From positions 2,126,453 through 2,190,452 of the forward strand of contig NC_015577.1 of assembly GCF_000214355.1 (NCBI RefSeq): DNA of 64,000 bases, read 5' to 3'. Numbering within the stretch: position 1 is the stretch's first letter; every line of letters begins with the position of its first letter. Below, piece by piece: positions 21,188-43,600 of this stretch. The notes under the pieces were generated by a model. That model was not told the DNA's origin. It made no database searches and saw only the letters and a program-made list of their open reading frames with translations. Origin of the DNA: Leadbettera azotonutricia ZAS-9 (GTDB taxonomy: Bacteria > Spirochaetota > Spirochaetia > Treponematales > Breznakiellaceae). The position numbers and the translations under genes were made by a program.

Positions 21188-21259
21188 GCGGGAATAGCTC
21201 AGTGGTAGAGCGCGACCTTGCCAAGGTCGATGTCGCGGGTCCGACTCCCGTTTCCCGCT
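21188..21259 (+). tRNA. tRNA-Gly (anticodon GCC), integration target
   Basis: The acceptor stem is GCGGGAA / TTCCCGC with U73. The anticodon loop TTGCCAA has GCC at 21220-21222. Its last 22 bases (from GGTCCGACTCCCG in the T arm) are repeated at 38980, the far end of the integrative element, so the element inserted here and restored the tRNA. Confidence 0.95.
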
Positions 21260-21273
21260 TTTATCTGGTAGGT

Positions 21274-21416: not shown

Positions 21417-22631
21417 ATGGCTCGAAGTTCCCTCTCGCTTTGGAAGCGTCCTACAACCGTTCCCCGCTCATTTGTCTACTATGTTCGTATATGGCTCCCT
21501 TCTGAAAAGCGGTATTCAACGCCCAAGTCGGCGGCTGTCCTGGCTGAAAATTTGGGGCTTGATATGTCCCAGCTCCCCCCTTCCACCAAAACCGGAGCGA
21601 GGAAAATTGGAGAAATTTGGCTTTTAAAGGGCGGCCTCAAAACACTCAAAAACAATCCCGACAATCCGCTTCTTGCCGATTTTTGCCTTGATTTCTGGAC
21701 TTGGGATAAGTCTGAATATGTCGAAGGAAAGATCGACCGGGAACAGCGTATAAGCAAGCGATGGTGCAAGGATAGCCACAATCGCATAGAAACGCACATT
21801 AAGCCATTAGTAACTGGAATACGCTTGCAGGAAGTGACTGCAAAATTTTTAGATCGAATTCAGCTGAAACTGAAAAAAACTACAAAATTGAGCACAAAAA
21901 CGATCAATAGCATTATGAACGCCGTCTTGACCCCTATCAGAGAGGCCCATAGGTTTGGGGTTATTGAAACCGATCCAACCCAAAATTTCCGAAGCTTGCC
22001 TTTGAATACTAAAAAGAAAGGCATTTTGACGACCAAAGAATTTTGCGCTTTATTGGCTAGTTCATGGCAAAATGAGCAAATTCGCCTTGCTGTCCTCTTG
22101 GCCCGTTATACTGGATTACGGATGGGGGAGGTTCTTGCCTTGGCTCCCAATGATTTTGATATTGATTATGAAGGGAAACCTGTTATATGGGTTCGGAAAA
22201 GCTGGTCAATTACAGAAGGGATAAAAAGCACAAAAACCGGAAATACCCGCGTAGTCCCAATAAGCGATGAACTCAAAAATGATTTATTGAAACTACATCA
22301 AAAAAATCCTCATGATGGCAGCTTCATTTTTTGGGGTGCTAATGAAAATACTCCCTTTACCCATAGAATGCTGGGAAGCGGCTTTTGCCATCAACTTGAA
22401 AAGATTGGTATTGATGAAGCAACACGGAAAGCCCGAAATATATCATTTCATTCACTTCGGCATATGTTTAATTCTACCCTCCGCGGTAAGATACCCGATC
22501 CAACTTTAAGGCTCGCAACAGGGCATGATGATCCGGATATGTCGGATCATTATGATCATCTTACTGACGAAAGACTTTCGGACATTAGAAACGCGCAAGA
22601 AAAATATATTTCTATAAAAAAGGTGGAATAA
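21417..22631 (+). CDS. int: Tyrosine recombinase (phage/ICE-type integrase)
   Basis: A 404-residue integrase directly downstream of its tRNA-Gly target. The catalytic domain shows box I Arg in LARYTGLRMGEVLAL, HSLRHMF (His-x-x-Arg), GHDDPDMSDHYDHL with the nucleophile Tyr, and an SAM-like N-terminal DNA-binding domain before it. All core residues appear present, so the enzyme should be active. The ATG at 21417 follows GGTTACC rather than a strong SD. A 124-codon 5' piece of the same gene is repeated at 39159. The gene's lower GC begins the AT-rich element. Confidence 0.92.
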   Translation: MARSSLSLWKRPTTVPRSFVYYVRIWLPSEKRYSTPKSAAVLAENLGLDMSQLPPSTKTGARKIGEIWLLKGGLKTLKNNPDNPLLADFCLDFWTWDKSEYVEGKIDREQRISKRWCKDSHNRIETHIKPLVTGIRLQEVTAKFLDRIQLKLKKTTKLSTKTINSIMNAVLTPIREAHRFGVIETDPTQNFRSLPLNTKKKGILTTKEFCALLASSWQNEQIRLAVLLARYTGLRMGEVLALAPNDFDIDYEGKPVIWVRKSWSITEGIKSTKTGNTRVVPISDELKNDLLKLHQKNPHDGSFIFWGANENTPFTHRMLGSGFCHQLEKIGIDEATRKARNISFHSLRHMFNSTLRGKIPDPTLRLATGHDDPDMSDHYDHLTDERLSDIRNAQEKYISIKKVE

Positions 22632-22989: not shown

Positions 22990-23232
22990 CTATGTAAAAT
23001 CAGTTTCTATGATTTTTTCAAGAATTTCTGCAACATGATCAATGACTATTGAATCATGAATAATTTCGTCCGGCTTAATAGTATCAGATTTTGAAAACCT
23101 TATTAAAGAAATTTTAGAATTACAAATTTTTATTGAAATATCAATATCTCCAAATTTAGGAATTCCATTAGCGAGTTCTAAATTTAAATAAGCTAATAAA
23201 TCACTATAAAAACTAAAAATATTATTTTTCAT
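22990..23232 (-). CDS. Hypothetical protein, cut off from its operon by an IS
   Basis: An 80-residue protein (MKNNIFSFYSDLLAYLNLEL, ending IEKIIETDFT region) that I do not recognise. It is hydrophilic and probably small alpha/beta. Its ATG lies inside the 15-bp target duplication of the IS at 23242. If the IS is removed in thought, the upstream HTH gene ends TFKNEK-stop and this ATG overlaps that stop, so the two were a translationally coupled pair. The insertion has removed its upstream transcription. Confidence 0.55.
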   Translation of the reverse strand: MKNNIFSFYSDLLAYLNLELANGIPKFGDIDISIKICNSKISLIRFSKSDTIKPDEIIHDSIVIDHVAEILEKIIETDFT

Positions 23233-23241
23233 TTTTGAAAG
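23227..23241 (+). repeat. 15-bp target-site duplication, left of IS copy 1
   Basis: TTTCATTTTTGAAAG is repeated exactly at 24645-24659, immediately flanking the 1403-bp IS. Confidence 0.85.
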
Positions 23242-23316
23242 TGTCCTGCCCACGTTGAACTTGCCGAAAAGAAGCTAAGCATATAAGGTAGTAACAACAA
23301 GCCCGAGGAGAGGAAT

Positions 23317-23628
23317 ATGGGCAGAAGAAAGCGGTACAGTCCTGAGCAGAAGGTGAACATCCTGCGGGAGGTTCTGGAAGAGGGCAAGACGATGAGCGAG
23401 GCGGCGGCCAAGTACGAGATCCACCCGAGCATGATCCTGGCCTGGAGGAAACAGCTCTTCGAGGGGGCGCTCAATCTCTTTGAGATCAAGCGCACAGACA
23501 TAACCGAGAAGGCGCAGGGGAAGAAGTCCAAGGCGTTGGAAGCCAAGATAGCGGAGAAGGACAACGTCATAGCGGAGCTGGCCCAGGAAGTCCTGGAGCT
23601 AAAAAAAAAGAGAGTTGGCCAGAGTTAG
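23317..23628 (+). CDS. IS3-type transposase OrfA (copy 1)
   Basis: A 103-residue helix-turn-helix protein (RYSPEQKVNILREVLEEGK, EIHPSMILAWRKQLFEGA) with a C-terminal leucine-zipper-like helix; it recognises the terminal repeats. At 23601-23610 the run AAAAAAAAAG lets ribosomes slip -1 into the orfB frame, which stays open upstream of the orfB ATG, so an OrfAB fusion transposase is expected as in other IS3 members. Confidence 0.9.
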   Translation: MGRRKRYSPEQKVNILREVLEEGKTMSEAAAKYEIHPSMILAWRKQLFEGALNLFEIKRTDITEKAQGKKSKALEAKIAEKDNVIAELAQEVLELKKKRVGQS

Positions 23629-23639
23629 GGACAAGCAAG

Positions 23640-24593
23640 ATGAGCCTCGAGAAACGGCAGTTGATAGAGCGGGAGGTGCGGCGCCTTTGCCTAAAGACCG
23701 GCATAGCCATGCTGACCCTGGCAGGCTTCGCCGGGGTGCCGGAACGCACCTGGAGGGAATGGCAGGCACGGCGCAACCAGGAGACGAGGCATAACGGGCA
23801 TATACCCCGGGAGCATTGGCTGACCCCTGCCGAAACAGAGGCCATCGTTGCGTACTGCCAGAGCCGGATGAAGCTTGGATACCGGGTGTTGTGCTGGCAG
23901 ATGGTAGACGAGGATGTGGCGGCGGCATCCCCCTCCAGCGTCTACAACGTGCTGAAACGCAGCGGCTTGACGAAGAAGTGGGCAGAACTGGCCGAGGAGA
24001 AGAAAAAAGGGTTTGACCAGCCTCAAGGGGTACACGAACATTGGCATATTGATTTTTCATACATCAGGATTGACGGGGCCTTTTATTATTTCATCAGCGT
24101 TCTTGACGGATACAGCCGGATGATCCTGGGCTGGGACTTATGCCGGAACATGGACGGGCTTAATGCGGAGATTCTCATCTCCCGGACGCATGAAAGACAC
24201 CCGGAGGCCAGGCCGCGCATTATCAGCGACAACGGCGGCCAGTTTGTTTCGAAAGACTTTCGTGATTTGATAATGCTTCTTGAGCTGGAACAAACATTTA
24301 CCGCCCCGGCGCATCCGCAGAGCAACGGCAAACTCGAACGCTTCCACCGGACATTCAAAACCGAGCATGTGAGGCAGGCTGCTTATTTCGGCTATGAAGA
24401 TGCCAAAGCCAGGATGGGCCGCTGGATAAAATATTACAACGAAAAGCGGCTCCACGGCTCGATTTATTATTTAAGTCCCCTTGATGTTTTTGAGGGGAGG
24501 ACTTATATTCGTCTTGCAGAGCGCAGACAAAAACTGCATTCTGCATATATTCAAAGACAGAGCTACTGGCAAAATCAAAATGCCGGACTCTGA
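23640..24593 (+). CDS. IS3-type transposase OrfB, DDE integrase core (copy 1)
   Basis: A 317-residue catalytic subunit. The rve core has Asp in HWHIDFSYI, Asp in IISDNGGQF and Glu in NGKLERFHRTFK, an intact D-D-35-E set. An N-terminal helical domain (residues 1-110) includes a second HTH-like region. It may be translated from ATG 23640 or as OrfAB by frameshifting. The protein is identical in copy 2, so the duplication is recent. Confidence 0.93.
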   Translation: MSLEKRQLIEREVRRLCLKTGIAMLTLAGFAGVPERTWREWQARRNQETRHNGHIPREHWLTPAETEAIVAYCQSRMKLGYRVLCWQMVDEDVAAASPSSVYNVLKRSGLTKKWAELAEEKKKGFDQPQGVHEHWHIDFSYIRIDGAFYYFISVLDGYSRMILGWDLCRNMDGLNAEILISRTHERHPEARPRIISDNGGQFVSKDFRDLIMLLELEQTFTAPAHPQSNGKLERFHRTFKTEHVRQAAYFGYEDAKARMGRWIKYYNEKRLHGSIYYLSPLDVFEGRTYIRLAERRQKLHSAYIQRQSYWQNQNAGL

Positions 24594-24594
24594 A

Positions 24595-24840
24595 CTAGCT
24601 TATATGCTCCTTCAAAAAACGGCAAGTTCGGCTTGGGCAATACATTTCATTTTTGAAAGTAACTTCATTATTTTCAAGAAATTGAATGATATTATCTATA
24701 GATATTTTAACATTCCTTTTAGAAAGATATATCCTCGATAATTTTCCATCCGAACAAAGTCTTTGAACAGTCCGTTTTGATATTGATAATATTTCTGCTG
24801 CTTCATTATAAGAGAAAAGATATTTCTTAATTTCTAACAC
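24595..24840 (-). pseudogene. Excisionase-like HTH protein, 3' end replaced by IS copy 1
   Basis: A MerR/excisionase-type helix-turn-helix is visible: FSYNEAAEILSISKRTVQRL, then LSRIYLSKRNVKISIDNIIQ. GTG at 24840 is the start because AAGGGGTG lies seven bases upstream; the ATG at 24909 has no such site. The original protein would be about 66 residues ending TFKNEK. The IS inserted in the last codons, so the frame now ends in IS-encoded residues. The DNA-binding part is intact and may still work. In an integrated element such a gene commonly sets excision direction. Confidence 0.7.
24645..24659 (+). repeat. 15-bp target-site duplication, right of IS copy 1
   Basis: An exact repeat of 23227-23241. 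It codes for the end of the HTH gene on the minus strand. Confidence 0.85.
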
Positions 24841-24909
24841 TATTAAACACCCCTTGTTAGAATTATCATGATATACTGTAAAATTGATGTCAAGTTTATA
24901 AATGATCAA

Positions 24910-25267: not shown

Positions 25268-25324
25268 TAAAGTACACTAAGTTACTAGGGGTTAACCAAG
25301 GTTAACCATTATTAAAATAGTAAT
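25268..25324 (+). repeat. Isolated copy of the array core repeat
   Basis: TAAAGTACACTAAGTTACTA followed by GGTTAACCAAGGTTAACC and the ATTATTA...TAGTAAT dyad matches the core of the tandem array at 27.4-28.6 kb. It is separated from the array by IS copy 2 and 0.6 kb. Confidence 0.9.
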
Positions 25325-25400
25325 ATAAAAAATATTTAGTATCAAACACTGTATTGCCCAAGCCGAACTTGCCGTTTTTTGAAGGAGCATATAAGCTAGT

Positions 25401-26354
25401 TCAGAGTCCGGCATTTTGATTTTGCCAGTAGCTCTGTCTTTGAATATATGCAGAATGCAGTTTTTGTCTGCGCTCTGCAAGACGAATATAAGTCCTCCCC
25501 TCAAAAACATCAAGGGGACTTAAATAATAAATCGAGCCGTGGAGCCGCTTTTCGTTGTAATATTTTATCCAGCGGCCCATCCTGGCTTTGGCATCTTCAT
25601 AGCCGAAATAAGCAGCCTGCCTCACATGCTCGGTTTTGAATGTCCGGTGGAAGCGTTCGAGTTTGCCGTTGCTCTGCGGATGCGCCGGGGCGGTAAATGT
25701 TTGTTCCAGCTCAAGAAGCATTATCAAATCACGAAAGTCTTTCGAAACAAACTGGCCGCCGTTGTCGCTGATAATGCGCGGCCTGGCCTCCGGGTGTCTT
25801 TCATGCGTCCGGGAGATGAGAATCTCCGCATTAAGCCCGTCCATGTTCCGGCATAAGTCCCAGCCCAGGATCATCCGGCTGTATCCGTCAAGAACGCTGA
25901 TGAAATAATAAAAGGCCCCGTCAATCCTGATGTATGAAAAATCAATATGCCAATGTTCGTGTACCCCTTGAGGCTGGTCAAACCCTTTTTTCTTCTCCTC
26001 GGCCAGTTCTGCCCACTTCTTCGTCAAGCCGCTGCGTTTCAGCACGTTGTAGACGCTGGAGGGGGATGCCGCCGCCACATCCTCGTCTACCATCTGCCAG
26101 CACAACACCCGGTATCCAAGCTTCATCCGGCTCTGGCAGTACGCAACGATGGCCTCTGTTTCGGCAGGGGTCAGCCAATGCTCCCGGGGTATATGCCCGT
26201 TATGCCTCGTCTCCTGGTTGCGCCGTGCCTGCCATTCCCTCCAGGTGCGTTCCGGCACCCCGGCGAAGCCTGCCAGGGTCAGCATGGCTATGCCGGTCTT
26301 TAGGCAAAGGCGCCGCACCTCCCGCTCTATCAACTGCCGTTTCTCGAGGCTCAT
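25401..26354 (-). CDS. IS3-type transposase OrfB (copy 2)
   Basis: Identical at the protein level to the copy at 23640, with all three catalytic acids present. It is read leftward. Confidence 0.93.
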   Translation of the reverse strand: MSLEKRQLIEREVRRLCLKTGIAMLTLAGFAGVPERTWREWQARRNQETRHNGHIPREHWLTPAETEAIVAYCQSRMKLGYRVLCWQMVDEDVAAASPSSVYNVLKRSGLTKKWAELAEEKKKGFDQPQGVHEHWHIDFSYIRIDGAFYYFISVLDGYSRMILGWDLCRNMDGLNAEILISRTHERHPEARPRIISDNGGQFVSKDFRDLIMLLELEQTFTAPAHPQSNGKLERFHRTFKTEHVRQAAYFGYEDAKARMGRWIKYYNEKRLHGSIYYLSPLDVFEGRTYIRLAERRQKLHSAYIQRQSYWQNQNAGL

Positions 26355-26365
26355 CTTGCTTGTCC

Positions 26366-26677
26366 CTAACTCTGGCCAACTCTCTTTTTTTTTAGCTCCA
26401 GGACTTCCTGGGCCAGCTCCGCTATGACGTTGTCCTTCTCCGCTATCTTGGCTTCCAACGCCTTGGACTTCTTCCCCTGCGCCTTCTCGGTTATGTCTGT
26501 GCGCTTGATCTCAAAGAGATTGAGCGCCCCCTCGAAGAGCTGTTTCCTCCAGGCCAGGATCATGCTCGGGTGGATCTCGTACTTGGCCGCCGCCTCGCTC
26601 ATCGTCTTGCCCTCTTCCAGAACCTCCCGCAGGATGTTCACCTTCTGCTCAGGACTGTACCGCTTTCTTCTGCCCAT
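26366..26677 (-). CDS. IS3-type transposase OrfA (copy 2)
   Basis: Identical to the OrfA at 23317, with the same A9G slip site before its stop codon, so it should also give an OrfAB fusion. Confidence 0.9.
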   Translation of the reverse strand: MGRRKRYSPEQKVNILREVLEEGKTMSEAAAKYEIHPSMILAWRKQLFEGALNLFEIKRTDITEKAQGKKSKALEAKIAEKDNVIAELAQEVLELKKKRVGQS

Positions 26678-26752
26678 ATTCCTCTCCTCGGGCTTGTTGT
26701 TACTACCTTATATGCTTAGCTTCTTTTCGGCAAGTTCAACGTGGGCAGGACA

Positions 26753-27380
26753 ACACAATCTGCAATGGTACACTATAGTTATTTCTTTTCCTTCTTTTGA
26801 ATATATACAAGGTGTTTAATTTTGAGTTCTTTAGTATACCTATGTCGGGATATAATAACACATTGCCTTCTATAATCAACGCTGTCATAAGTACTTGATG
26901 TATTCTTTCTTGAATTACCGCCACTGCAATTACCAAAAATTAAATGTTGAGAACATGATTTTGATGGATTGACGCAATCTTGATGTTGACTTCATCTTTC
27001 AGGCTTTTTGGGTTTCGGTAAGTAAGCTTATATGCGTATCAGGCCTGAATATTTTTTCTTGGAATTCTTTAAAAAAATTATATTTAAAATATATAGCCAT
27101 AATGATTCATAAAAATATAAAGAAAAAAAGATATTGTAAAGAAAAAAATTGATTCAACGATTTGTAAACATTTTGCAATTCTTTATAACATAAAGAATTG
27201 CATTAACTTTTTAAGGAAAAATGTTTACAGAATTTCTAATTGTAAACAATGTAAGTTGTTGTATTATAAGTAGTTGCGTCAAATTGTTTACAATCTTTAT
27301 CTTGCTATTATTAGTAATATGTGTATATCTGTTAATTTTTTGTTTGTAAAATTTTTTGTGTAATTGAAAATTAAAGCGTA
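26753..27380. other. AT-rich noncoding region with dyads
   Basis: No supported ORF; the 66-codon frame at 26736-26936 starts in sequence of unknown nature and runs into the IS. The right half holds a 12-bp-arm hairpin and four TTGTAAACA motifs, listed separately. Confidence 0.5.
27162..27294. promoter_or_regulatory. Cluster of TTGTAAACA motifs around a long dyad
   Basis: TTGTAAACA at 27162, its complement at 27222-27230, ATTGTAAACAAT at 27239-27250 and the exact complement ATTGTTTACAAT at 27283-27294. Between the first two lies a hairpin with arms GCAATTCTTTAT / ATAAAGAATTGC (27175-27201, AAC loop). The regular inverted pairs suggest binding sites for a dimeric or initiator protein. The function is unknown. 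Confidence 0.5.
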
Positions 27381-28630
27381 AAATTAATAACAGTAATGAT
27401 TAAATAGTGCCTTTCGGACTTTTGCTATACCCTGCCCCCTTGGGGCAATACCTGATCAAGAAAACAGATGATTACCGCTGGCTCATTGAGCGTTAAAGTA
27501 CACTAAGTTACTAGGGGTTAACCTAGGTTAACCATTACTAAAATAGTAATGATTCAATAGTGCCTTTCGGACTTTTGCTATACCCTGCCCCCTTGGGGCA
27601 AATACCTGATCAAGAAAACAGATGATTGGTGCTGGCTCATTGAGCGTTAAAGTACACTAAGTTACTAGGGGTTAAGTATACTTAACCATTATTAAAATAG
27701 TAATGATTAAATAGTGCCTTTCGGACTTTTGCTATACCCTGCCCCTTGGGGCAAATACCTGATTAAGAAAACAGATGATTGCCGCTGGCTTATTGAGCAT
27801 TAAAGTACACTAAGTTACTAGGGGTTAACCTAGGTTAACCATTACTAAAATAGTAATGATTAAATAGTGCCTTTCGGACTTTTGCTATACCCTGCCCCCT
27901 TGGGGCAAATACCTGATCAAGAAAACAGATGATTGGTGCTGGCTCATTGAGCGTTAAAGTACACTAAGTTACTAGGGGTTAAGTATACTTAACCATTACT
28001 AAAATAGTAATGATTAAATAGTGCCTTTCGGACTTTTGCTATACCCTGCCCCTTGGGGCAAATACCTGATTAAGAAAACAGATGATTGCCGCTGGCTTAT
28101 TGAGCATTAAAGTACACTAAGTTACTAGGAGTTAACCACGGTTAACCATTATTAAAATAGTAATAATTAAATAATGCTTATCAGACTTTTGCTATACCCT
28201 GCCCCGTGGGGCAAATACCTGATCAAGAAAACAGATGATTGCCATTGGCTCATTGAGCATTAAAGTACACTAAGTTACTAGGAGTTAACCACGGTTAACC
28301 ATTATTAAAATAGTAATAATTAAATAATGCTTATCAGACTTTTGCTATACCCTGCCCCGTGGGGCAAATACCTGATCAAGAAAACAGATGATCGCCATTG
28401 GCTCATTGAGCGTTAAAGTACACTAAGTTACTAGGGCTTAACCTAGGTTAAGCATTACTAAAATAGTAATGCTTAAATAGTGCCTTTCGGACTTTTGTTA
28501 TGCCCTGCCCTCTTGGGGCAAATACCTGATTAAGAAAACAGATGATTGCCATTGGCTTGGCAAAGGCATTAAAGTACACTAAGTTACTAGGGGTTGACCA
28601 TGGTCAACCATTACTAAAATAGTGATAATT
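27381..28630 (+). repeat. Tandem array of eight ~153-bp structured units
   Basis: The core TAAAGTACACTAAGTTACTA starts at 27494, 27648, 27801, 27955, 28108, 28261, 28414 and 28570 (spacing 153-156). Each unit holds four dyads: an 18-bp palindrome such as GGTTAACCTAGGTTAACC, ATTACTA-AAA-TAGTAAT, TGCCCC-(2-3 nt)-GGGGCA and GCTCA-T-TGAGC. Indels in the TGCCCC loop break any shared reading frame, so it is noncoding. The array lies just past the 3' end of the dnaE2-like gene. Confidence 0.93.
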
Positions 28631-28754
28631 AATATAGGCATGCACTTGAATAAAGTTATCCATTATTTTTATCTTCTTTTCTTTTTATGATTTTTTATTT
28701 GGGAACTACCCGGATTTAAGAGCGAGATGGCACAAAGGCCTTGTAAAGTGTTTA

Positions 28755-31718
28755 TCACTCTAAAATCTCAATCCTCTGTACCTCTACCGACACCGCTCCC
28801 CAATCCTCCGCAACCTTCCCGTAAACTAAAAGTGGTCGCTGATCAAAAAGTAAATGATTATACAGGTCATACACCTTGGGAAAAATTACTGTCTCATACA
28901 TAGCGGTCTCATCCTCAAATGTGAGGAAACTCATTGTCAAACCGTCCTTAGTCCATACTTCCTTTTGCGTAATAGGCCAGCCAATCAAACAAATATATTT
29001 TCCCAGAAAATCCCCAATCCTAAGCGCTTTTATACGCCGAGCAGCCATTACTTTATCTTTCCAGAGGGCAAGAGGATGAACATTTTTCAAAAAGCCCAAA
29101 GACCTAAATTCTTCCCATAATTCATTGTTGAAAGTTTTTTTATTTACAGGGGCCATTACAGCAGTACTTCCAGCCTTATAAATAGGGACAATCTCCGTTA
29201 AGAATAGTTCTTCCTGTCCCTTCCGGGTTGCCCTCGTATGAGCCTTTAAAAGTTCTCTTGCCTGTATTGTTCGTGGCAAACCATTGGCTATGCGATCAAA
29301 AACTCCAGCCGGGCATAAAGCTGTTATGTCATCTCGATCTAACTTAACGCGCCGCAGAAAATTATTGAGATTTATAAAATCCCCACCCCTCTCACGTTCC
29401 TTTATTATTGTTTCAGCTCCACTATGTGAAAATCCCTTAACTGCCATAAGACCTATAACAACCCTTCGTCCCTGTCCATAATACCGCCATTGGCTCAAGT
29501 TTATATCAGGGCCTTCAAGTAATAAGCCCATTCTTCTGCACTCGGAAATATAAGCATGGGATTTATAGTAACCACCCTGATTACTTAAGACCCCTGCCAT
29601 AAACTCCGCAGGGTGATGTACTCGTAAATATGCCGACTGAAAAGACACCATAGCATAAGAGGCAGAGTGAGGCTTACAAAAACTATACCCATCAAACGAA
29701 AGCATCATTTCCCAAATCTTTTTTGTTGCTTCTTCGCTAACCTCATTCCTTTTGCACCCTTCAAAAAATTGTTTTTCATAAAGAGCTAATTTTACTGCCC
29801 CTGCTTTTTTCGCTATTACCTTCCGAAGCTTATCAGCCTCCGCCTCATCAAACCCAGCCAATGCCACAGCAGTCTTGCTTACATCTTCTTGGTAGCAAAG
29901 TATTCCATAAGTTTCATCTAAAATCTTTGCCAAGCGAGGGTGGAGCGGCTCCCATTTTCCCCCTTTTAAACGTCTGATGTATTCATTTATAAACTTATTA
30001 GCCGCAGGTCGTATTATCGAGGAATGAATTACAATGTGTTCAAAATCACCAGCTCCTGTTTTTTTCTGCAATAATCTCATAGCCGGACTTTCAATATAAA
30101 ATACGCCCATGCTATTTCCTACAGCCAAAGCTTCCACCGTCGCCTTGTCTTGAATAGGCCGCCAAGTGTGAGGATCAATACAGATACCCTGCTCCTCAAG
30201 ATTTCTAAGCGTATCTCTAATTACCGCCAGACTTCTATTCCCCAGCAAATCAATCTTTACAAACCCGGCCGCCTCTGTTCCTTCTTTTTCCCATGACAGC
30301 AAAGGGTAACCTTCCAAAGAATTTTCAATCGGAATTCGGAAATGTATAGGGTTTGGGGTGATCACCAGCCCTCCACAGTGCATACTAAGTCCATGCGGAA
30401 GTCCTTCAATTTTTTTCGCAATAGACAATATCTCTGTCCAAAGTGGATCATTTATATCTGACTTATCCCCAAAATGAAACATCTGCTTTTCTATCCGTGA
30501 AATTTCCCCATCGCCAAACCCGTAAGCCTTCGCCGTTTCCCTCAGTGCAGAACGCGACCGAAAAAAATTGTGATTGGCTACCCTTGCGCAATGGTCTGAT
30601 CCGAACCGTTCAATAACTTTCTTAATAAGCTCATCTCGTTCGTCCCAAGCAAAATCAACGTCAATATCAGGAGGGTCAGATCGTGCGGGGTTCAAAAACC
30701 GCTCAAAATAAAGATGGTGTGCAATAGGGTCAACATTGGTAATCCCAAGCGAATAGGAAACAATAGAAGCGGCCCCCGATCCCCTGCCACAGGTTCGGGA
30801 AGCCATTTTAACAATATCGTCCATCACTAAAAAATAAGGGGCAAAGCCCTTGCGCTCGATTATATCAAGTTCATAATCAATCCTTGCTAATTCACTATCC
30901 CCCAATTCCCCATATCGTTCCACAGCCCCCTCAATCACTCTATTGTATAATTCTTCCCCAGCGGATACACCAGTTTCATACCCAGGAAATACCCAGCCAT
31001 CAAATAACTCATTATAAGTGCAGGATTGGGCAATCTCTCTTGTCCCCTCTGCTGATTCCGGCCATGACATGAGCCGTCTTTCAATCAATGAAGAATTGGA
31101 AAGCACAAAACCCTCTTTGGTAACACAATCAGTATCTTCGAGTGTACCAACGGTCTTTCCCAAATCTATAGCCCTTAAAACCCTGTGAACATTATAGTCC
31201 TCTTTTTCCAAAAAAGCCGAATTGTCTAAAAATGCCAAAGGAATACCCAGCCTTTTGTTAAGGCCTGCGGCTTTAATGGATTGGGGGGTAATCCCCCCAT
31301 ACAGATATTTAACCTTCCCAGCCAGCGAAATTAATAAAGCTTCATCTTCCGAAACTAGCCTCAATCCGGCAGAATTTTCACACAACAGCATAATAGGGTC
31401 ATATCTCTTTTTATCTCTGTTCCTAATAGTCAACAGTTCACAAATACGCGCATACCCCTGTTTGCTCTCAACAAAACAATATATCAGCCCTTTACCTTCT
31501 ATAGTCAGACAGACCCCAATAACTGGTCTAATCCCTGCTTCCTTAGCCTTTTCCAAAATATCAGGTAGCCCATATAAATTATCCCTGTCAGCAATACCAA
31601 TACTCGTAACGCCAAGAGCTTTGCATTTTTCTATAAGTTCAACAGGCCTTCTCATTCCATATAAAAACGAGTATGCTGAACACAGCCCTAAGCGTTCTTC
31701 GAGTGTAGGTTCAACCAT
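28755..31718 (-). CDS. DnaE2/ImuC-like error-prone DNA polymerase III alpha subunit
   Basis: A C-family polymerase of 987 residues, shorter than replicative DnaE (about 1150) and close to DnaE2. The catalytic acids are intact: PDIDVDF with D351 and D353, and D490 in GFVKIDLLGN. The finger region GRGSGAASIVSYSLG is present. The N-terminal PHP domain has lost its HxH motif (LGLCSAYSFLYG), so no PHP nuclease is expected. The C-terminus keeps an HhH region and an OB fold (GKYICLIGWPITQKEVW). It overlaps the ImuB-like gene by 8 bp, as expected if that protein recruits it to lesions. This is not the housekeeping replicase: it lies on an integrated element with lower GC. Confidence 0.85.
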   Translation of the reverse strand: MVEPTLEERLGLCSAYSFLYGMRRPVELIEKCKALGVTSIGIADRDNLYGLPDILEKAKEAGIRPVIGVCLTIEGKGLIYCFVESKQGYARICELLTIRNRDKKRYDPIMLLCENSAGLRLVSEDEALLISLAGKVKYLYGGITPQSIKAAGLNKRLGIPLAFLDNSAFLEKEDYNVHRVLRAIDLGKTVGTLEDTDCVTKEGFVLSNSSLIERRLMSWPESAEGTREIAQSCTYNELFDGWVFPGYETGVSAGEELYNRVIEGAVERYGELGDSELARIDYELDIIERKGFAPYFLVMDDIVKMASRTCGRGSGAASIVSYSLGITNVDPIAHHLYFERFLNPARSDPPDIDVDFAWDERDELIKKVIERFGSDHCARVANHNFFRSRSALRETAKAYGFGDGEISRIEKQMFHFGDKSDINDPLWTEILSIAKKIEGLPHGLSMHCGGLVITPNPIHFRIPIENSLEGYPLLSWEKEGTEAAGFVKIDLLGNRSLAVIRDTLRNLEEQGICIDPHTWRPIQDKATVEALAVGNSMGVFYIESPAMRLLQKKTGAGDFEHIVIHSSIIRPAANKFINEYIRRLKGGKWEPLHPRLAKILDETYGILCYQEDVSKTAVALAGFDEAEADKLRKVIAKKAGAVKLALYEKQFFEGCKRNEVSEEATKKIWEMMLSFDGYSFCKPHSASYAMVSFQSAYLRVHHPAEFMAGVLSNQGGYYKSHAYISECRRMGLLLEGPDINLSQWRYYGQGRRVVIGLMAVKGFSHSGAETIIKERERGGDFINLNNFLRRVKLDRDDITALCPAGVFDRIANGLPRTIQARELLKAHTRATRKGQEELFLTEIVPIYKAGSTAVMAPVNKKTFNNELWEEFRSLGFLKNVHPLALWKDKVMAARRIKALRIGDFLGKYICLIGWPITQKEVWTKDGLTMSFLTFEDETAMYETVIFPKVYDLYNHLLFDQRPLLVYGKVAEDWGAVSVEVQRIEILE

Positions 31719-32928
31719 ACACCGCTCCCGGCAACAGGGGAATTGTACTGTACTTTTTCTGTACCACCATTACCATTCCTGTAGTCAAAGAACCAATCCC
31801 ATACCTATTCCGTATCTTGTCTTTTGCTTCCTGTAGCTTCCGTTGCTTTTCCTCTTGCTCAACCTCAAAAAGATCCGGGCACCACCCAAGAGGCCGCAGA
31901 TCTTCAAGGCTTACGCCAATAGACTTTATTCTTAAACGCCTTACCACAATAGCGCGATATATCTTTTCGGCCGCTTGTGCTATATTCTTATCAGTGATCC
32001 AGTAGCCGCCCTTTTCAATATCCTGTACCCAAGCCCCATCAGAGTAGGTAGCCTTGAACCGAATACGTGCGGTTCCTAATTTCTTACCACGCATTTCAAT
32101 TCCCGTAATCTCCGAAAGATGGACAATCCCGGCCTTTATTATCTCCGCTTCCGTTACATCCTCTGCAAACTCCAAAACCCTTTCAATCTTTTTTTCCCCA
32201 AGCTCTCCGCTTTCCACAGGGCTGGTATCAATCCCCAAAGCCATATCACGCAGTTTTAGACCATATTTGCCAAAAAGCGAAAGAGCCTCCCCATCAGTGA
32301 GCGCCGCCAGTTCCCCAATCTCCCGATACCCTGTAACCGCCGCAGTCTGCATAAGCGAAACCCCCATGCCAGGGAGCAACTTCAAACTCTGATGTGCTAA
32401 AAAGGACGCTTCCATACCATTCTGTATCTCTATACGGCCTGTCGGCCTGATTACCCTGCTTGCAATCTTCGTAACCAGTTTATTGTTTGCCACCGAAACT
32501 GTAGGCCGCATACCAGTCTGTTCATGTATTTTTTTTAATATACGCCCAGAGCAAGCAAACGGAGCCCCAAAAAGCGTATCCGTTCCTGTCAGGTCGAGGT
32601 ATAGATTTCCCAGTCCGTCATTCTCATAAAGAGGGGCATACACCGCAGCAATTTTTTCCAGTTCCCTATTCATAACTGTATAAGCAGAAGGATCAGGAGG
32701 CAACACCAATAAATTTTTAACACATTTTTCCGCATTGGAAAGAGACATGCCTCTCGTAATCCCTTCCTGTAACGCTTCATGGGATAAATCCAATACTAAA
32801 GCCCTGCCGCATGTCGATCCGGAAATGACAAATGGCCTTCCAAGCAAAGCTTTATCCTTCGCCGAGGCCACCATAGCGCGAAACCCGATGCAATTGAGAT
32901 GGCATATAGTTCTAGGCCTGTTGCCCAT
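31711..32928 (-). CDS. ImuB-like, catalytically dead Y-family polymerase homologue
   Basis: A 405-residue DinB/ImuB-fold protein. Against E. coli Pol IV (D8, D103, E104) the acids are replaced by N12 (CHLNCIGF), G107 and N108 (GLGNLYLDLTG). It therefore cannot catalyse, which is the hallmark of ImuB, the platform that brings DnaE2 and the clamp together. The HhH region (LKLLPGMGVSL) and little-finger domain are retained. It overlaps both neighbours (17 bp with DUF72, 8 bp with dnaE2), so the three are one translational unit. The usual partner ImuA is not present. The name is by analogy. Confidence 0.8.
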   Translation of the reverse strand: MGNRPRTICHLNCIGFRAMVASAKDKALLGRPFVISGSTCGRALVLDLSHEALQEGITRGMSLSNAEKCVKNLLVLPPDPSAYTVMNRELEKIAAVYAPLYENDGLGNLYLDLTGTDTLFGAPFACSGRILKKIHEQTGMRPTVSVANNKLVTKIASRVIRPTGRIEIQNGMEASFLAHQSLKLLPGMGVSLMQTAAVTGYREIGELAALTDGEALSLFGKYGLKLRDMALGIDTSPVESGELGEKKIERVLEFAEDVTEAEIIKAGIVHLSEITGIEMRGKKLGTARIRFKATYSDGAWVQDIEKGGYWITDKNIAQAAEKIYRAIVVRRLRIKSIGVSLEDLRPLGWCPDLFEVEQEEKQRKLQEAKDKIRNRYGIGSLTTGMVMVVQKKYSTIPLLPGAVYG

Positions 32929-33715
32929 ACAGGCCTGCCTTTTCCAAAATCTTCATCAATGATTGGGCATTTTGAACCGCCTGTCCCTTGGCGTGATTAT
33001 TGAAATAAACCAGAATTTTATCTGCTTCCAATGCCACCATCTTTAGCCGGTCAACCCACTCGCTCAATTCCTGATCCTCGTAAAGATAATCATACCGGGC
33101 AACCTCATCAGACCCCCACCAGGCATCCTTGTTCCGTCCATGGAGCCGGATATAGGAAACAGGGGCTGTTACTAAATCCATCGAAGGCGGCAAATGAGCC
33201 AATTCCGGCATATCAAGGGACACAAGGCTAATCCCTCGCTTCTTCATGCCTTCTATCAGCTTGTCATTGAACCATTCATTATTCCTGAATTCCACTGCCA
33301 AAGGTACGCCGCTAAAAAAGGACAAGAGGCTATCCAGATACCGCCTGTTTTTTTCTTCATATTTGAACGAATACGGGAACTGAACCAAAACTGCCTCCAA
33401 GCGCCCAGCCCTTAAGACCGGATCTATGGCTTCCCGGAAGGTTTTCGCGTCCTGCTCCCACTTGGCAGGGTCGATTTTGTGGGTCAGGCTCTGGTGGGCC
33501 TTTACAGAAAAGGTCAGACTAGCTCCCCCGTCAACCAGCATTTTGGCCAAATTTTCCGCCTTGGGCATGGAATAATAGGTATAGTCCAGCTCTACCGTCC
33601 TAAAACGCCTTGCATACAGGGATAGAAAGTCTTTTTTCGGCGTACCCTCGGGGTAAACCACCCCCAGCCAGTCTGTGTAATAGAAGCCACATGTTCCTAC
33701 AAGAATTTTCGACAT
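32912..33715 (-). CDS. DUF72 (YecE family) TIM-barrel-like protein
   Basis: A 267-residue DUF72 protein: start VGTCGFYYTDWLGVVYPEGT, then FSVKAHQSLTHK, PLAVEFRNNEWF and the late ILVYFNNHAKGQAVQNA. The biochemical role of the family is unknown. It is the first gene of a three-gene overlapping operon with the ImuB-like and DnaE2-like genes, occupying the slot where imuA would be. The upstream 185 bp hold AT-rich promoter-like sequence, but I cannot assign boxes or a LexA-type operator. Confidence 0.88.
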   Translation of the reverse strand: MSKILVGTCGFYYTDWLGVVYPEGTPKKDFLSLYARRFRTVELDYTYYSMPKAENLAKMLVDGGASLTFSVKAHQSLTHKIDPAKWEQDAKTFREAIDPVLRAGRLEAVLVQFPYSFKYEEKNRRYLDSLLSFFSGVPLAVEFRNNEWFNDKLIEGMKKRGISLVSLDMPELAHLPPSMDLVTAPVSYIRLHGRNKDAWWGSDEVARYDYLYEDQELSEWVDRLKMVALEADKILVYFNNHAKGQAVQNAQSLMKILEKAGLYGQQA

Positions 33716-37133: not shown

Positions 37134-38360
37134 CTACATCAACACCTCCGGTATGGATGTGTAAGTTTTTCCATCAAGTAGCCGTTCAAGCTGATCCATG
37201 CCGATTTTCCGGTTTTCCATTTTCACAAGGTTTTCCAGTATCTTGCCATGCGTCCAGCCGGAAGCGTCCCATATTCGGGCCGACTGTATCTGCCGGAAGG
37301 AAAAATGATTGTGCTGTCCGGTCATGACCTTGACCCTGAAATCCATATTTTCAGCCCATAGTTTGGCAATTTTCTCGTTGACCAGCTTCATATCGGAAGT
37401 ATGAAAATTCCGCTCTAGCGTATGCTTCTGGACTTCCAATAAAACGGCTTCCATGTTATCGGCGTTAAGCTCTTGGGCAAGGGTGTAGCCTGTCCGCTTG
37501 GCAAAATGGCTAATGCACTGCAATCCTGCTTTGCCGCCGGGGATCATGTTCAAGCCTTTCTGGTACAGGGAAGAAAGGGAGCGGTTCTCTACTTCTGTTT
37601 CTTCAAGGTCAAGGGCTTGGGTTTCGGTAAGCCCTGCCCTTTCCACAATATGTTCCAGCACTTTGATTTTGAAGAATTCTCCCCTCAATGCCCGATGGAA
37701 CAGAAGGTTTGAACCCTTCATGGTGGCGTAGCAATGCTGTTTGTACCGTTCCTGCCATGTCCGCTTTGTTATGCCCACATAAATAGAGGATTTCTCCTGA
37801 TGGGCTTTCTGTGCCCTGTATAGCCCTTTCTGGTTAATGTCGGGAAGGGGATTTTGCATGAGGGGGTATGCTGTTTCGTACTGGCTTTCTTCGGGAAGCA
37901 GGGTATGGGAATAAAGCTGGTATGATCCCTGTTTCAGCACCGCCGTCTCGCCAAACCCAAAAAGGTACTCCATAGGTACAATGAAGGAGTTAAGTACCCC
38001 CTTATGGTGGAAACCCACGACAAGATGATTTCCGGTATATGAGGCTGGCGTTTTTTCCTCATAGTCAACGATGATGCGGTAATCCCTGGCCTTATGGAGT
38101 GTCGAGATTTTGTGGTCTGTAGAGGGATCAAAGTAGATGGTGATATTCAAGGTCGGATACTTGGTCTCGCTTGCGGCCCCTGGCCTCCATTCTTCCTTGA
38201 GGGTGCTTTCGGTTGCGGCGTTCCGGTAGTTTTCAAGCATTTCCTTAAGTTTGCCGGGGTTGTTGCGGTCGATGCCGTCAATCGCTTTTTGCAGTTCCCC
38301 ATACGCTTTTTTGTTGAGGGGGAACAAAAGTTTTTCAAAAACCGATGAACTGAATTTCAT
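37134..38360 (-). CDS. GIY-YIG nuclease-domain protein
   Basis: 408 residues. The GIY-YIG core runs from about 178 to 275: GLY (179-181), YVG (194-196), the conserved Arg in TKRTWQERYKQH and the metal-binding Glu in LDLEETEVENR, followed by the common NMIPGGKAG loop. The flanking domains, an N-terminal 170 and a C-terminal 130 residues, are not recognised. Such proteins include homing and mobile-element nucleases and DNA-repair enzymes. It is divergent from an XRE gene near the right end of the element. Role unknown; element maintenance or defence is possible. Confidence 0.8.
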   Translation of the reverse strand: MKFSSSVFEKLLFPLNKKAYGELQKAIDGIDRNNPGKLKEMLENYRNAATESTLKEEWRPGAASETKYPTLNITIYFDPSTDHKISTLHKARDYRIIVDYEEKTPASYTGNHLVVGFHHKGVLNSFIVPMEYLFGFGETAVLKQGSYQLYSHTLLPEESQYETAYPLMQNPLPDINQKGLYRAQKAHQEKSSIYVGITKRTWQERYKQHCYATMKGSNLLFHRALRGEFFKIKVLEHIVERAGLTETQALDLEETEVENRSLSSLYQKGLNMIPGGKAGLQCISHFAKRTGYTLAQELNADNMEAVLLEVQKHTLERNFHTSDMKLVNEKIAKLWAENMDFRVKVMTGQHNHFSFRQIQSARIWDASGWTHGKILENLVKMENRKIGMDQLERLLDGKTYTSIPEVLM

Positions 38361-38979: not shown

Positions 38980-39530
38980 GGTCCGACTCCCGTTTCCCGC
39001 TTTTGTCTGGTAGGCCCGGAAAGATGACTTTCCGGGCTTTTTAATGACTAATTCCTTATGTCATAAGGAATTAGGGCTGGCGAGGAAAACTCGAAGCTTG
39101 TTAGTGTTAATCCATTGTTGCACAAATTGTAGTATTTTGTGCAAGGCGCAGGGTTACCATGGCTCGAAGTTCCCTCTCCCTTTGGAAGCGTCCTACAACC
39201 GTTCCCCGCTCATTTGTCTACTATGTTCGTATATGGCTCCCTTCTGAAAAGCGGTATTCAACGCCCAAGTCGGCGGCTGTCCTGGCTGAAAATTTGGGGC
39301 TTGATATGTCCCAGCTCCCCCCTTCCACCAAAACCGGGGCGAGGAAAATTGGAGAAATTTGGCTTTTAAAGGGCGGCCTCAAAACACTCAAAAACAATCC
39401 CGACAATCCGCTTCTTGCCGATTTTTGCCTAGATTTCTGGACTTGGGATAAGTCTGAATATGTCGAAGGAAAGATCGACCGGGAACAGCGTATAAGCAAG
39501 CGATGGTGCAAGGATAGCCACAATCGCATA
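38980..39530 (+). repeat. Right copy of the 551-bp direct repeat (attR plus a second integrase start)
   Basis: Nearly identical to 21238-21788, from GGTCCGACTCCCG of the tRNA-Gly 3' end through the palindrome (39049-39073) into the integrase gene. A simple attR would carry only the tRNA part, so this is the left end of a second element that was integrated in tandem and then mostly deleted. Confidence 0.92.
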
Positions 39531-39542
39531 TTCCGCTGTTAA
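39159..39542 (+). pseudogene. int: Truncated integrase gene (5' 124 codons)
   Basis: Matches the N-terminus of the integrase at 21417 with only a few base changes up to CAATCGCATA. The match then ends, and the frame stops four codons later. It has no catalytic domain, so it is inactive. It marks the deletion point of the second element. Confidence 0.92.
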
Positions 39543-40644: not shown

Positions 40645-43600
40645 ATGCTTCCATCAGGTTCTGATTCAAAGGGAAATTTTAGTCGTTTCTGGGCATTTTT
40701 ATTGATCCTCTTGATGATTAGTCCCGCCGGAGTGCTTCCGGTCTATGCGGACGAGTATGCCTATGTGTGGAACGGAAGCCCCGGCAGCAATTGGAGCACC
40801 TCCGGAAACTGGAGGGTGGGTGATGAGGAGCCTCCAGAACATGTCGGCCCTCCGGAGAGTGGTGATAGCGCCGCAATCGGTAGCGGTGGCAGTGCAGTGG
40901 TTTCCAGCTCCGACGGGACGGCTCAGACTGTTACCGTTGGCGGCGGCTTAACGGTCTTAGGTAGCAGCTTGATCGTTGGCAATGGCGGGGTTGCGGTTAA
41001 TGGGGGTAGCCTTACCCTTACCGGCGGCAACCTAAACGTTGGCGGCAGCGGAATTGCGGTTAACGGGGGCAGTTTTACTCTTACCGGCGGCAGCCTTTTG
41101 GCTGGTACGGTTACTACTGACAGCTCGGGTGTAATCAATATCGGCGCCGCAGCCGGCAGCACTGCGGTAGCAGTAAGCGGCAGCACTTTAGACGGCAGCA
41201 CGGAGTTTTCCGGCACAGGTGGTACCCTACAGTTCAACAGTACCGGTTTAACCTTTAGCAATGCTATCAATGGCAGCCTGAAGCTTGTACAAACTGCGGG
41301 GACTACCATCCTTACCGGTAATAACAACTATACCGGGGGAACCACTATAGGCACCGGAGCAACCCTGCAAATAGGCAATGGTACTACCGGAAGCATTGCA
41401 AATGCCGGTTTGATTGACAATAGTGGTACCCTGATCTTTAACCGCAACGCTACGGTTACCCATAGTGGTGTTATCAGTGGAAGCGGCGCTTTGACCCAGG
41501 CGGGATCAGGGACACTGATACTGACCGGGTCTAACAACTATGCTGGGGTCACCACCATCACCGACGGTCTAATCCAATTTACTAACGCCAATAGGGGCGT
41601 CGGCAATACCGACGCCAATAACTTAGGACTGGGTAAGATTACCCTTAACGGCGGCGGCCTTCGATGGGACAGCAACACATATGATTTATCCGGCAGATTG
41701 AACGCCATCGGCTCAGGCGGGGCAACCTTTGACACCAACGGAAATAACGTAACCCTTGGAACTGCCCTTACCGGCACAGGCGGTATTACCAAAGACGGCA
41801 GCGGAACTCTTATCCTTACGGGGGCTAACACCTATACCGGAGGAACCATTATTTCAGCCGGCGGTACTTTGCAGATAGGCAATGGCGTTTCCGGTGCCGG
41901 TGATACCGGAAGCATAGCCAATAGCAGCGGCATTATCAACAATGGCGCCCTGATCTTCAACCGTTCCGGTACCGTCGATTACGGTAAGGTAATCAGTGGA
42001 ACCGGAACCCTGACCAAACAGGGTACGGGCATCCTCACTTTGACTGGGGCTAATACCTATGGCGGGGGAACTACTATTACAGGCGGCCTTATTAATTTCG
42101 CCAATATTGGCAATTTTGGGGATACCACCTCACCAGCTTATGATCACAATATTACCCTCAACGGCGGCGGCCTCCAATGGGCAACCGGCAATACCACTAA
42201 TATATCCGATAAGCTCTACGGCGTTATCGGCACTGAGGGCGGAACCTTTGACACCAATAATAATGGCCCCATAACTCTTGCCACCGTCCTGTCGGGGGGT
42301 GGCTCCAAGGGCATTACCAAAACCGGCGGCGGAACCCTTATCCTTTCGGGGGCTAACCGCTATAACGGGGGAACCACCATCAACGGCGGTTTAATCCAAT
42401 TTACTAACGCCGATTGGGGTACCGGCTCTGACGCCAATAACCTAGGACTGGGTAATATTACCCTTAACGGCGGCGGCCTTCGTTGGGACAGCAACAACTA
42501 TGATATCTCCGGCAGATTGAACGCCATCGGTCAAAGTGGCGGGACCTTCAATACTGACATCAATGTAAACTTTGCCAAGCCCATTACCGGTCCTGGTACT
42601 CTTAACACTAACCTCAATTATTATGTTATCACCAAGGCCGGCACCGGGACTCTTTCGTTCAGCGGCAGCGGCGCCATTGCCGATACCCTGGGCCTTAACC
42701 TGCTCGCCGGTACCCTGGACATTTCGGGCATTGGCGAGTTCGATGCGACCGAGGTTCGGGTCAAGTCCCTGTCCGGGGCTGGCGCCTTGTTTTTAGGTGA
42801 TGTCATGGATAGCAGCAATAGAATTATCGTGGGTCATGATCCGGCAGTGATCGGTGGTACTCCGATAGCGGACGGCGGCGGCAGCTATGGCGGAGCTATT
42901 TCCGGCATTGGAGGGCTTACCAAAACCGGTACCGCTCTCCTGACTCTTACCGGTACCAGCTTCTATACCGGCGGCACCGAAATTCTGAAGGGTCTTATCA
43001 ACTTCAGTGATCCGGCTAATTTTGGTACTACCACCCTATTGCAAGACAAGATTATCCTTAATGGCGGCGGCCTCCAATGGGCAAGCAGTTACAACGGCGA
43101 CGATATATCCAGTGCACTCAACGGCGCTATCGGTATTAACGGCGGTACCTTTCATACCAATAATAATTTACCCATCACCCTGAGTACTCCCCTGACAGGG
43201 GGCGGAACCTCCTTCGACACCGGCATTACCAAAGACGGCGGGGGGACCCTCGTCCTTACCGGGCTTAATACCTATTCCGGGGGAACCCTTATTAAGGGTG
43301 ATAGTACCAAGGGTAGTTTTATCCAATTTAGTGACGCCGACAGGGACAAGGACAACAAGGATCGGCCCAATAATTTAGGACTGGGTACTATTACCCTCAA
43401 CGGCGGAGGGCTCCTTTGGGGCGCGAACTACAATTATGACATATCCGAAAGGGAGATCACCGTCGTTGGAAGCGATTTAATCGGTGGAACCTTTAACACC
43501 AACGGCAACACCATACTGCCCTTTGCAAAAGCCCTTACCGGCTCCGGCGCTGTTACCAAGATGGGCGAGGGCAGCCTTACCTTTACTGTTATTAATGAAT

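Follow-up and report, generated by a model that had tools for sequence, protein, structure and literature searches.

A tandem array of hairpin-and-block units on a tRNA-Gly integrative element of Leadbettera azotonutricia resembles MobV-family origins of transfer

Why does a noncoding 153-bp unit stand eight times in tandem in the chromosome of Leadbettera azotonutricia ZAS-9, each time with a palindrome whose sequence changes while its arms stay matched? We investigated this array in the 64,000-nucleotide stretch of DNA that surrounds it (hereafter the window; G000:C1:2126453-2190452). A first-pass annotation, made from the sequence alone, had read the palindromes as selected for pairing or for symmetric protein binding and had offered an iteron or centromere array, or a multi-copy structured RNA, as the function. 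Our analysis supports a cis-acting array that serves an element and is selected for pairing, but the iteron, centromere and RNA proposals fit less well. Instead, the array is probably an oriT/RSA-like site for a MobV-family relaxase, amplified in tandem on an integrative element that lacks its own relaxase ("iOriT"). OriT-only elements depend on the relaxases of others.

Invariant blocks and changing hairpins

The tandem array occupies 27392-28637 (TRF: 8.1 copies, 153-bp period, 91% matches). It consists of eight units of 153 or 154 bp that start at 27407, 27560, 27714, 27867, 28021, 28174, 28327 and 28480, and a higher-order period of 307 bp is visible, with haplotypes common to several units. 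The array is noncoding, as first described, in that it contains no ORF of at least 45 aa. Collapse of the assembly, which had been named as a possible artefact, is not seen as its source: the genome is one contig of 3,855,671 bp and the units differ from one another. A whole-genome search added a ninth, solo copy of 58 nt at 25268-25325, between two IS3-type insertion sequences, which shares with the array units exactly a 58-nt core. Together, array and solo copy form the only such locus in the genome. The solo copy, the invariant block described below and the surrounding integrative element were all absent from the first-pass annotation.

All nine cores read on the minus strand as a hairpin, CC and TAGTAAC/TTAGTGTACTTTA. 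They lie at 27494..27551 (core 1), 27648..27705 (core 2), 27801..27858 (core 3), 27955..28012 (core 4), 28108..28165 (core 5), 28261..28318 (core 6), 28414..28471 (core 7), 28570..28627 (core 8) and 25268..25325 (the solo core, with hairpin and nick-like block). Core 1 illustrates the layout, with the block at 27494-27515 (minus strand CCTAGTAACTTAGTGTACTTTA), the hairpin at 27516-27533 and a second dyad at 27534-27550. The two main parts of the core behave very differently: none of the 22 columns of the block (TAAAGTACACTAAGTTACTAGG) varies across the nine cores, whereas 9 of the 16 columns of the hairpin arms do (Fisher P 7e-5).

How do the arms change? Nearly all arm changes in the 18-nt hairpin are paired, and its central two bases vary freely. 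Cores 2 and 4 have the same hairpin, GGTTAAG-TATA-CTTAACC; core 7 carries a paired C-G/G-C change and core 8 a paired change from A-T to G-C. On the minus strand, 100% of 56 hairpin cells are paired, three pairs are changed on both sides and both-side changes number 4; on the plus strand one cell is unpaired. In the covariation test over the units that had been suggested, none of 500 minus-strand shuffles reached the observed percentage paired, number of both-side-changed cells or covariation score, and slid controls scored far below the hairpin. If the changes were placed at random over the 16 arm sites, all three changed haplotypes would be symmetric with P about 8e-7. The positions first reported for four palindromes (27516, 27670, 28436 and 28592) are correct, and their description as co-varying holds to the extent that paired changes far exceed chance. 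However, two of the eight array hairpins, at 28130 and 28283, are imperfect palindromes with a one-sided outer G-to-A change, a G-T wobble on the minus strand in cores 5 and 6, and a non-symmetric centre, AC. The centre of the solo hairpin is AA, such that two-fold symmetry of the centre is lost in three of nine copies. What is conserved is the two arms and their pairing, not the 18-bp two-fold symmetry that had been proposed.

The paired changes amount to about three independent events, because cores 2 and 4, 5 and 6, and 1 and 3 share haplotypes by duplication. Template switching at quasi-palindromes can also yield matched changes without selection. Unit 7 (28414-28480) is suggestive of this process: a matched change recurs a third time, in GCTTAA further downstream, giving three copies of that motif and two mutually exclusive hairpins, both perfect there. 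The alternative 13-bp hairpin, formed by the second arm and the downstream dyad, was rejected, as it is 86.5% paired, has covariation within the range of shuffles and is perfect in unit 7 only. The second dyad (ATTACTA/TAGTAAT) had been listed as a matched pair but has one-sided changes only, and the strand implied by G-U-compatible changes differs from dyad to dyad. Taken whole, most units have folding energies no more than about 1 sd from those of shuffles, and the best of the rest, units 7 and 8 apart, lie near -2.4; these two fold more stably than their shuffles (z down to -3.8), and the DNA-hairpin energies are ordinary against shuffles.

We found no DNA relatives of the array in the 199 other genomes of the family, including the other treponemes in which a search had been suggested, or in plasmid, phage, viral or GTDB contigs. 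The covariation test could therefore not be extended with units from these genomes. One weak match (G024, L012) lies inside a rodA-like gene and is due to chance. Adjoining the array is an AT-rich noncoding tract (about 27000-27390, 27% G+C) with TGTAAACA/TGTTTACA inverted motifs and, at 27174-27202, an inverted repeat with a 13-bp stem, a possible operator or origin region.

An integrative element in tRNA-Gly

The array sits in an integrative element of roughly 17.7 kb in tRNA-Gly. A 25-bp repeat, comprising the 3' end of the tRNA and the following bases, lies at 21238..21262 (attL-like, plus strand) and again at 38980..39004 (attR-like, plus strand), and behind both repeats nearly the same sequence leads into an integrase. 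Behind the first repeat this is an intact tyrosine recombinase (21417..22631, plus strand; PF00589, 1.5e-14), and the copy behind the second is truncated (39159-39542). A PF00589 integrase together with a directly repeated tRNA 3' end is the layout expected of an integrative mobilizable element of the iOriT kind. An excisionase-like HTH_17 protein is encoded at 24595..24909 on the minus strand (PF12728, 3.3e-09; TIGR01764 just under cut-off), and the 3' end of its gene is disrupted by an IS3-type insertion. The two IS3-type copies with rve matches, at 23242..24644 (plus strand) and, inverted, 25350..26752 (minus strand), are 1403 bp long and 100% identical. The copy at 23242 is flanked by a direct repeat of about 13-15 bp (CATTTTTGAAAG; window 23229-24657), unusually long for IS3, where a few bases are usual; at the second copy, a 4-bp flanking repeat (ACAC) is possible.

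The element also carries Xre-type regulators, a weak GIY-YIG-like protein (37134..38360, minus strand) with 97% identity to its counterpart on a sister MobV element elsewhere in this genome, and a DUF72/imuB-like/dnaE-like module. Of the ORFs scanned between 21.2 and 39.0 kb, none was found to encode a relaxase. The module, a translesion polymerase set at window 28755-33715, has a second imuB-/dnaE-like copy in the same genome (about 59% and 73% identical), and imuB- and dnaE-like genes stand side by side in many genomes of the family (L038, L039, L040 and others). We considered whether the array belongs to this module. The module is widespread in relatives, but the array is in none of the twelve loci checked, and the neighborhood is therefore incidental.

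Further along the window, at 40645-52872, a 4075-aa ORF contains internal tandem repeats of 300 bp and 237 bp and is autotransporter-like by appearance only. In a 4,059,867-bp genome of the comparison set (G038:C1; L073 6972-7415 and 9120-9190), a tRNA-Met is followed at once by a noncoding tandem array of another kind (169 bp x 2.6). Each of its units holds the tRNA 3' end and an inverted copy of it, and the array borders on a decayed integrase with about 50% identity to that of this element; the array looks like tandem att-like repeats.

A sister MobV relaxase and its candidate oriT

If the element has no relaxase of its own, which relaxase could act on it? The only Mob_Pre relaxase found in the genome is a MobV protein (5.7e-30) on the sister element (L069, G000:C1:2096000-2115900), about 40 kb from the array. 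Its HxxR and HxDExxPHxH motifs were found, and the classical motif II (NYDL-like) was not. A MOBP relaxase in the genome was considered and is not supported. Such relaxases are infrequent in the treponeme family, with Mob_Pre carried by 3 of the 200 genomes searched. At L069 15700-19660 (G000:C1:2111700-2115660), the sister element encodes ParA, a small possible partner protein and the intact MobV relaxase, and a tandem duplication of about 1.2 kb has copied the 3' part of mob along with a candidate oriT.

This candidate, directly after the sister mob gene, is a hairpin, GGGACTTT-GAA-AAAGTCCC, with TAGTAAGTTAGTG. The hairpin runs at once into TAGTAAGTTAGTGG, in the same geometry as the array cores, and the nick-like sequence behind it reads TAGTAAG/TTAGTG. 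Over CCTAGTAAsTTAGTG, the array block and the sister site agree at 14 of 15 bases; the hairpin arms of the array differ from those of the sister. When the 22-nt block was used to scan related loci, the sister site was the one place that stood out, with 17 of 22 bases identical, a similarity that is weak alone, as about 3% of shuffled queries equal it at that locus and eight loci were scanned. Anchored at TAGT, the two agree at 15 of 20 bases, a score reached by 1 of 712 background TAGT sites. With up to one mismatch, CACTAAsTTACTAGGG occurs in the source genome only in the array, the solo copy and the sister site; two of the 199 other family genomes have one match each, and the reversed control matched four times.

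In a different genus, a plasmid-like contig (G015:C66, L079) has the hairpin arms of the sister site and TAGTGGG just upstream of its mobV. The exact pattern GGGACTTTN{3,5}AAAGTCCCTAGT had no match in GTDB contigs, TTACTAGGGACTTTN{3,5}AAAGTCCC had none in viral contigs, and blastn of the G015:C66 site against plasmids gave none, so the assignment of the sister site as a candidate oriT rests on this one cross-genus match and on geometry. Plasmid matches to the sister site in Lactococcus, Lactobacillus and Agrobacterium were set aside, with E of 1-4 and no annotated mob gene adjoining in the two regions opened.

Do the array cores share the anatomy of other MobV sites? We used a composite motif consisting of a perfect stem of at least 7, a loop of 2-6, a gap of 0-3 nt and TAGT[AG]N[GC][TC], in which C was admitted because the array sites have it; with G required, the array sites fail. 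This motif matches every one of the nine cores, the two sister copies and three MobV loci, and 663,540 bases of related background gave 0 matches. The loose motif gave one further match in the window, at 28477 on the plus strand, which arises from the alternative hairpin of unit 7. Thus, a hairpin 0-3 nt before a nick-like motif, as expected of a MOBV-type oriT, is present in all nine copies. Other features of such sites differ. The strict MOBV nick motif is TAGTRNG/T, but the copies read TAGTAAC/T, with C for G at one position: all nine copies have C immediately before the presumed nick, where the sister and published MOBV sites compared have G. Moreover, the array does not adjoin a mob gene. 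Upstream of mobV in Glaesserella and in G015:C65 we found hairpin-G-TAGTGAGTAC, and other mobV upstreams have a hairpin, 0-3 nt and TAGTG(A/C)GT. The motif was not found upstream of mobV in Acinetobacter and Allocoleopsis, and in Paracoccus and B. subtilis TAGTGAGT/TAGTGCGT is present without a perfect 7-bp stem.

Competing explanations and known systems

These features can be accommodated in one model. The integrase would first excise the element. A relaxase, most likely the sister-element MobV, would bind the extruded hairpin, nick in or near TAGTAAC/TTA and pilot the strand through a conjugation system present in the same cell. That relaxase may also recombine two sites, which would explain unit duplication, deletion and the solo copy. 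What we observe directly is the anatomy of the sites, their pattern of invariance and covariation, the integrative element, the lack of a relaxase among its scanned ORFs and the likeness to MobV oriTs in geometry and nick region; nicking, mobilization in trans and amplification by a relaxase we infer. The sister MobV is the likely helper, and the two elements also share the 97%-identical protein. This reading leaves unexplained why eight copies would be needed and what the remaining dyads of the 153-bp unit do.

Could the array instead bind a replication or partition protein? Under this explanation, which we consider unlikely, the palindromes are dyads recognized by a dimer that the element encodes (Rep, a ParB/CopG-type protein or an HTH repressor) and lie beside the AT-rich tract. 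The regular 153/154-bp spacing, the invariant 22-nt block, the inverted motifs of the adjoining tract, the HTH proteins in the element and ParA on the sister element would all suit it. However, there is no rep gene in the element and no par gene among its scanned ORFs, 153 bp is long for iterons, and arms that change with pairing kept around a center that is asymmetric in three of nine copies are the reverse of what binding by a sequence-specific dimer would lead one to expect. Pairing with free loop positions speaks for an RNA, as do several further dyads per unit and the good folding of units 7 and 8. Yet a multi-copy small RNA, with the unit as a transcribed hairpin gene or processed repeat, seems slightly more doubtful still. 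Most units fold much like their shuffles, there is no excess of promoters or terminators and no Rfam family, the G-U-compatible changes imply different strands in different dyads, and the solo copy holds the 58-nt core only.

A selfish or neutral satellite, in which unequal crossing-over amplifies the unit and template switching or gene conversion produces matched changes without selection, is about as improbable, or a shade more so. It draws on the 307-bp period, the shared haplotypes, the small number of independent paired events and unit 7, where the matched change at three places is more than one hairpin needs. A mutational process would not, however, on its own predict a 22-nt block that is unchanged in nine copies while the hairpin beside it changes, and that block resembles the sister MobV site. 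Recombination cassettes or transposon ends, namely integron attC sites, REP/RAYT hairpins or IS200/IS605 ends, also combine a changing hairpin with a fixed flank, and the tandem layout is cassette-like. This reading is largely refuted and very improbable: the RYYYAAC/GTTRRRY boxes of attC are not conserved across units, no integron integrase exceeds the curated cut-off, the genome has no Y1 transposase match (PF01797), the copies lie at one locus only and the units lack an ORF of at least 45 aa. No rival accounts at once for the fixed block, the paired hairpin and the likeness to MobV sites, but neutral mutation may suffice for the covariation taken by itself.

Within the oriT-like explanation, a functional tandem array is a tentative further step. 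A hijacked MOBV origin would have been amplified to nine copies, with hairpins diversified and pairing kept, that compete for the relaxase of a neighbor or accept several relaxases, and copy number would change by relaxase-mediated recombination. If true, the nine copies, with their fixed nick block and diversified hairpins, would let the determinant of oriT specificity be tested, the array would allow a test of whether copy number improves hitch-hiking, and MOBV mobilization would be extended to the treponeme family.

How does the array compare with known systems? In the partial literature searched we found no natural tandem oriT array, although several oriTs on one plasmid are known. MOBV oriTs of the pMV158, IMESag-rpsI and pBBR1/pMOS2 types (PMC5863519, PMC5090054, PMC3832669, PMC3632715) share with the array a 7-9-bp stem, a short loop and a gap of 0-3 nt before a nick-like TAGT-N-N-(G/C)/T on the hairpin's own strand, and a Mob_Pre relaxase in the same genome. 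In pMV158 the hairpin is followed by TAGTGTG/TTA and in MobSag by TAGTGCG/TTA (PMC5863519, PMC5090054); the published pMOS2 site is TAGTAAGTGC (PMC3832669), and an 8-bp inverted repeat with a 3-bp spacer is the typical MOBV structure (PMC3632715). Unlike these origins, the array has eight tandem copies and a solo copy, C before the presumed nick, a location away from the relaxase gene and a hairpin sequence that differs between copies.

The iOriT class (PMC11389934) has, like this element, an integrase, a directly repeated tRNA 3' end, a candidate oriT and no relaxase found. A tandem array of sites is not described in the literature searched, and mobilization of the present element is a prediction. 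Relaxases are known to recombine repeated oriT sites, as documented for Mob02281 of pBMB0228 and the Mobs of pE194 and pT181 (PMC4902927); for the sister relaxase and the array sites, such recombination may be the mechanism by which units are gained and lost. Finally, the oriT mimics of the Staphylococcus pWBG749 family combine an identical oriT core with an IR2 hairpin that has diverged between subtypes (PMC4652767, PMC8136818), and they resemble the array in this fixed core, diverged hairpin and presence of several oriTs on one replicon. Their relaxase comes from another element, and their oriTs recombine during transfer, as shown for pWBG749 (PMC4652767, PMC8136818); we propose the same for the array. 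Those mimics rely on SmpP (MOBP) and have their two or three oriT variants dispersed, whereas the array sites are tandem, MOBV-like and carried on an integrated element.
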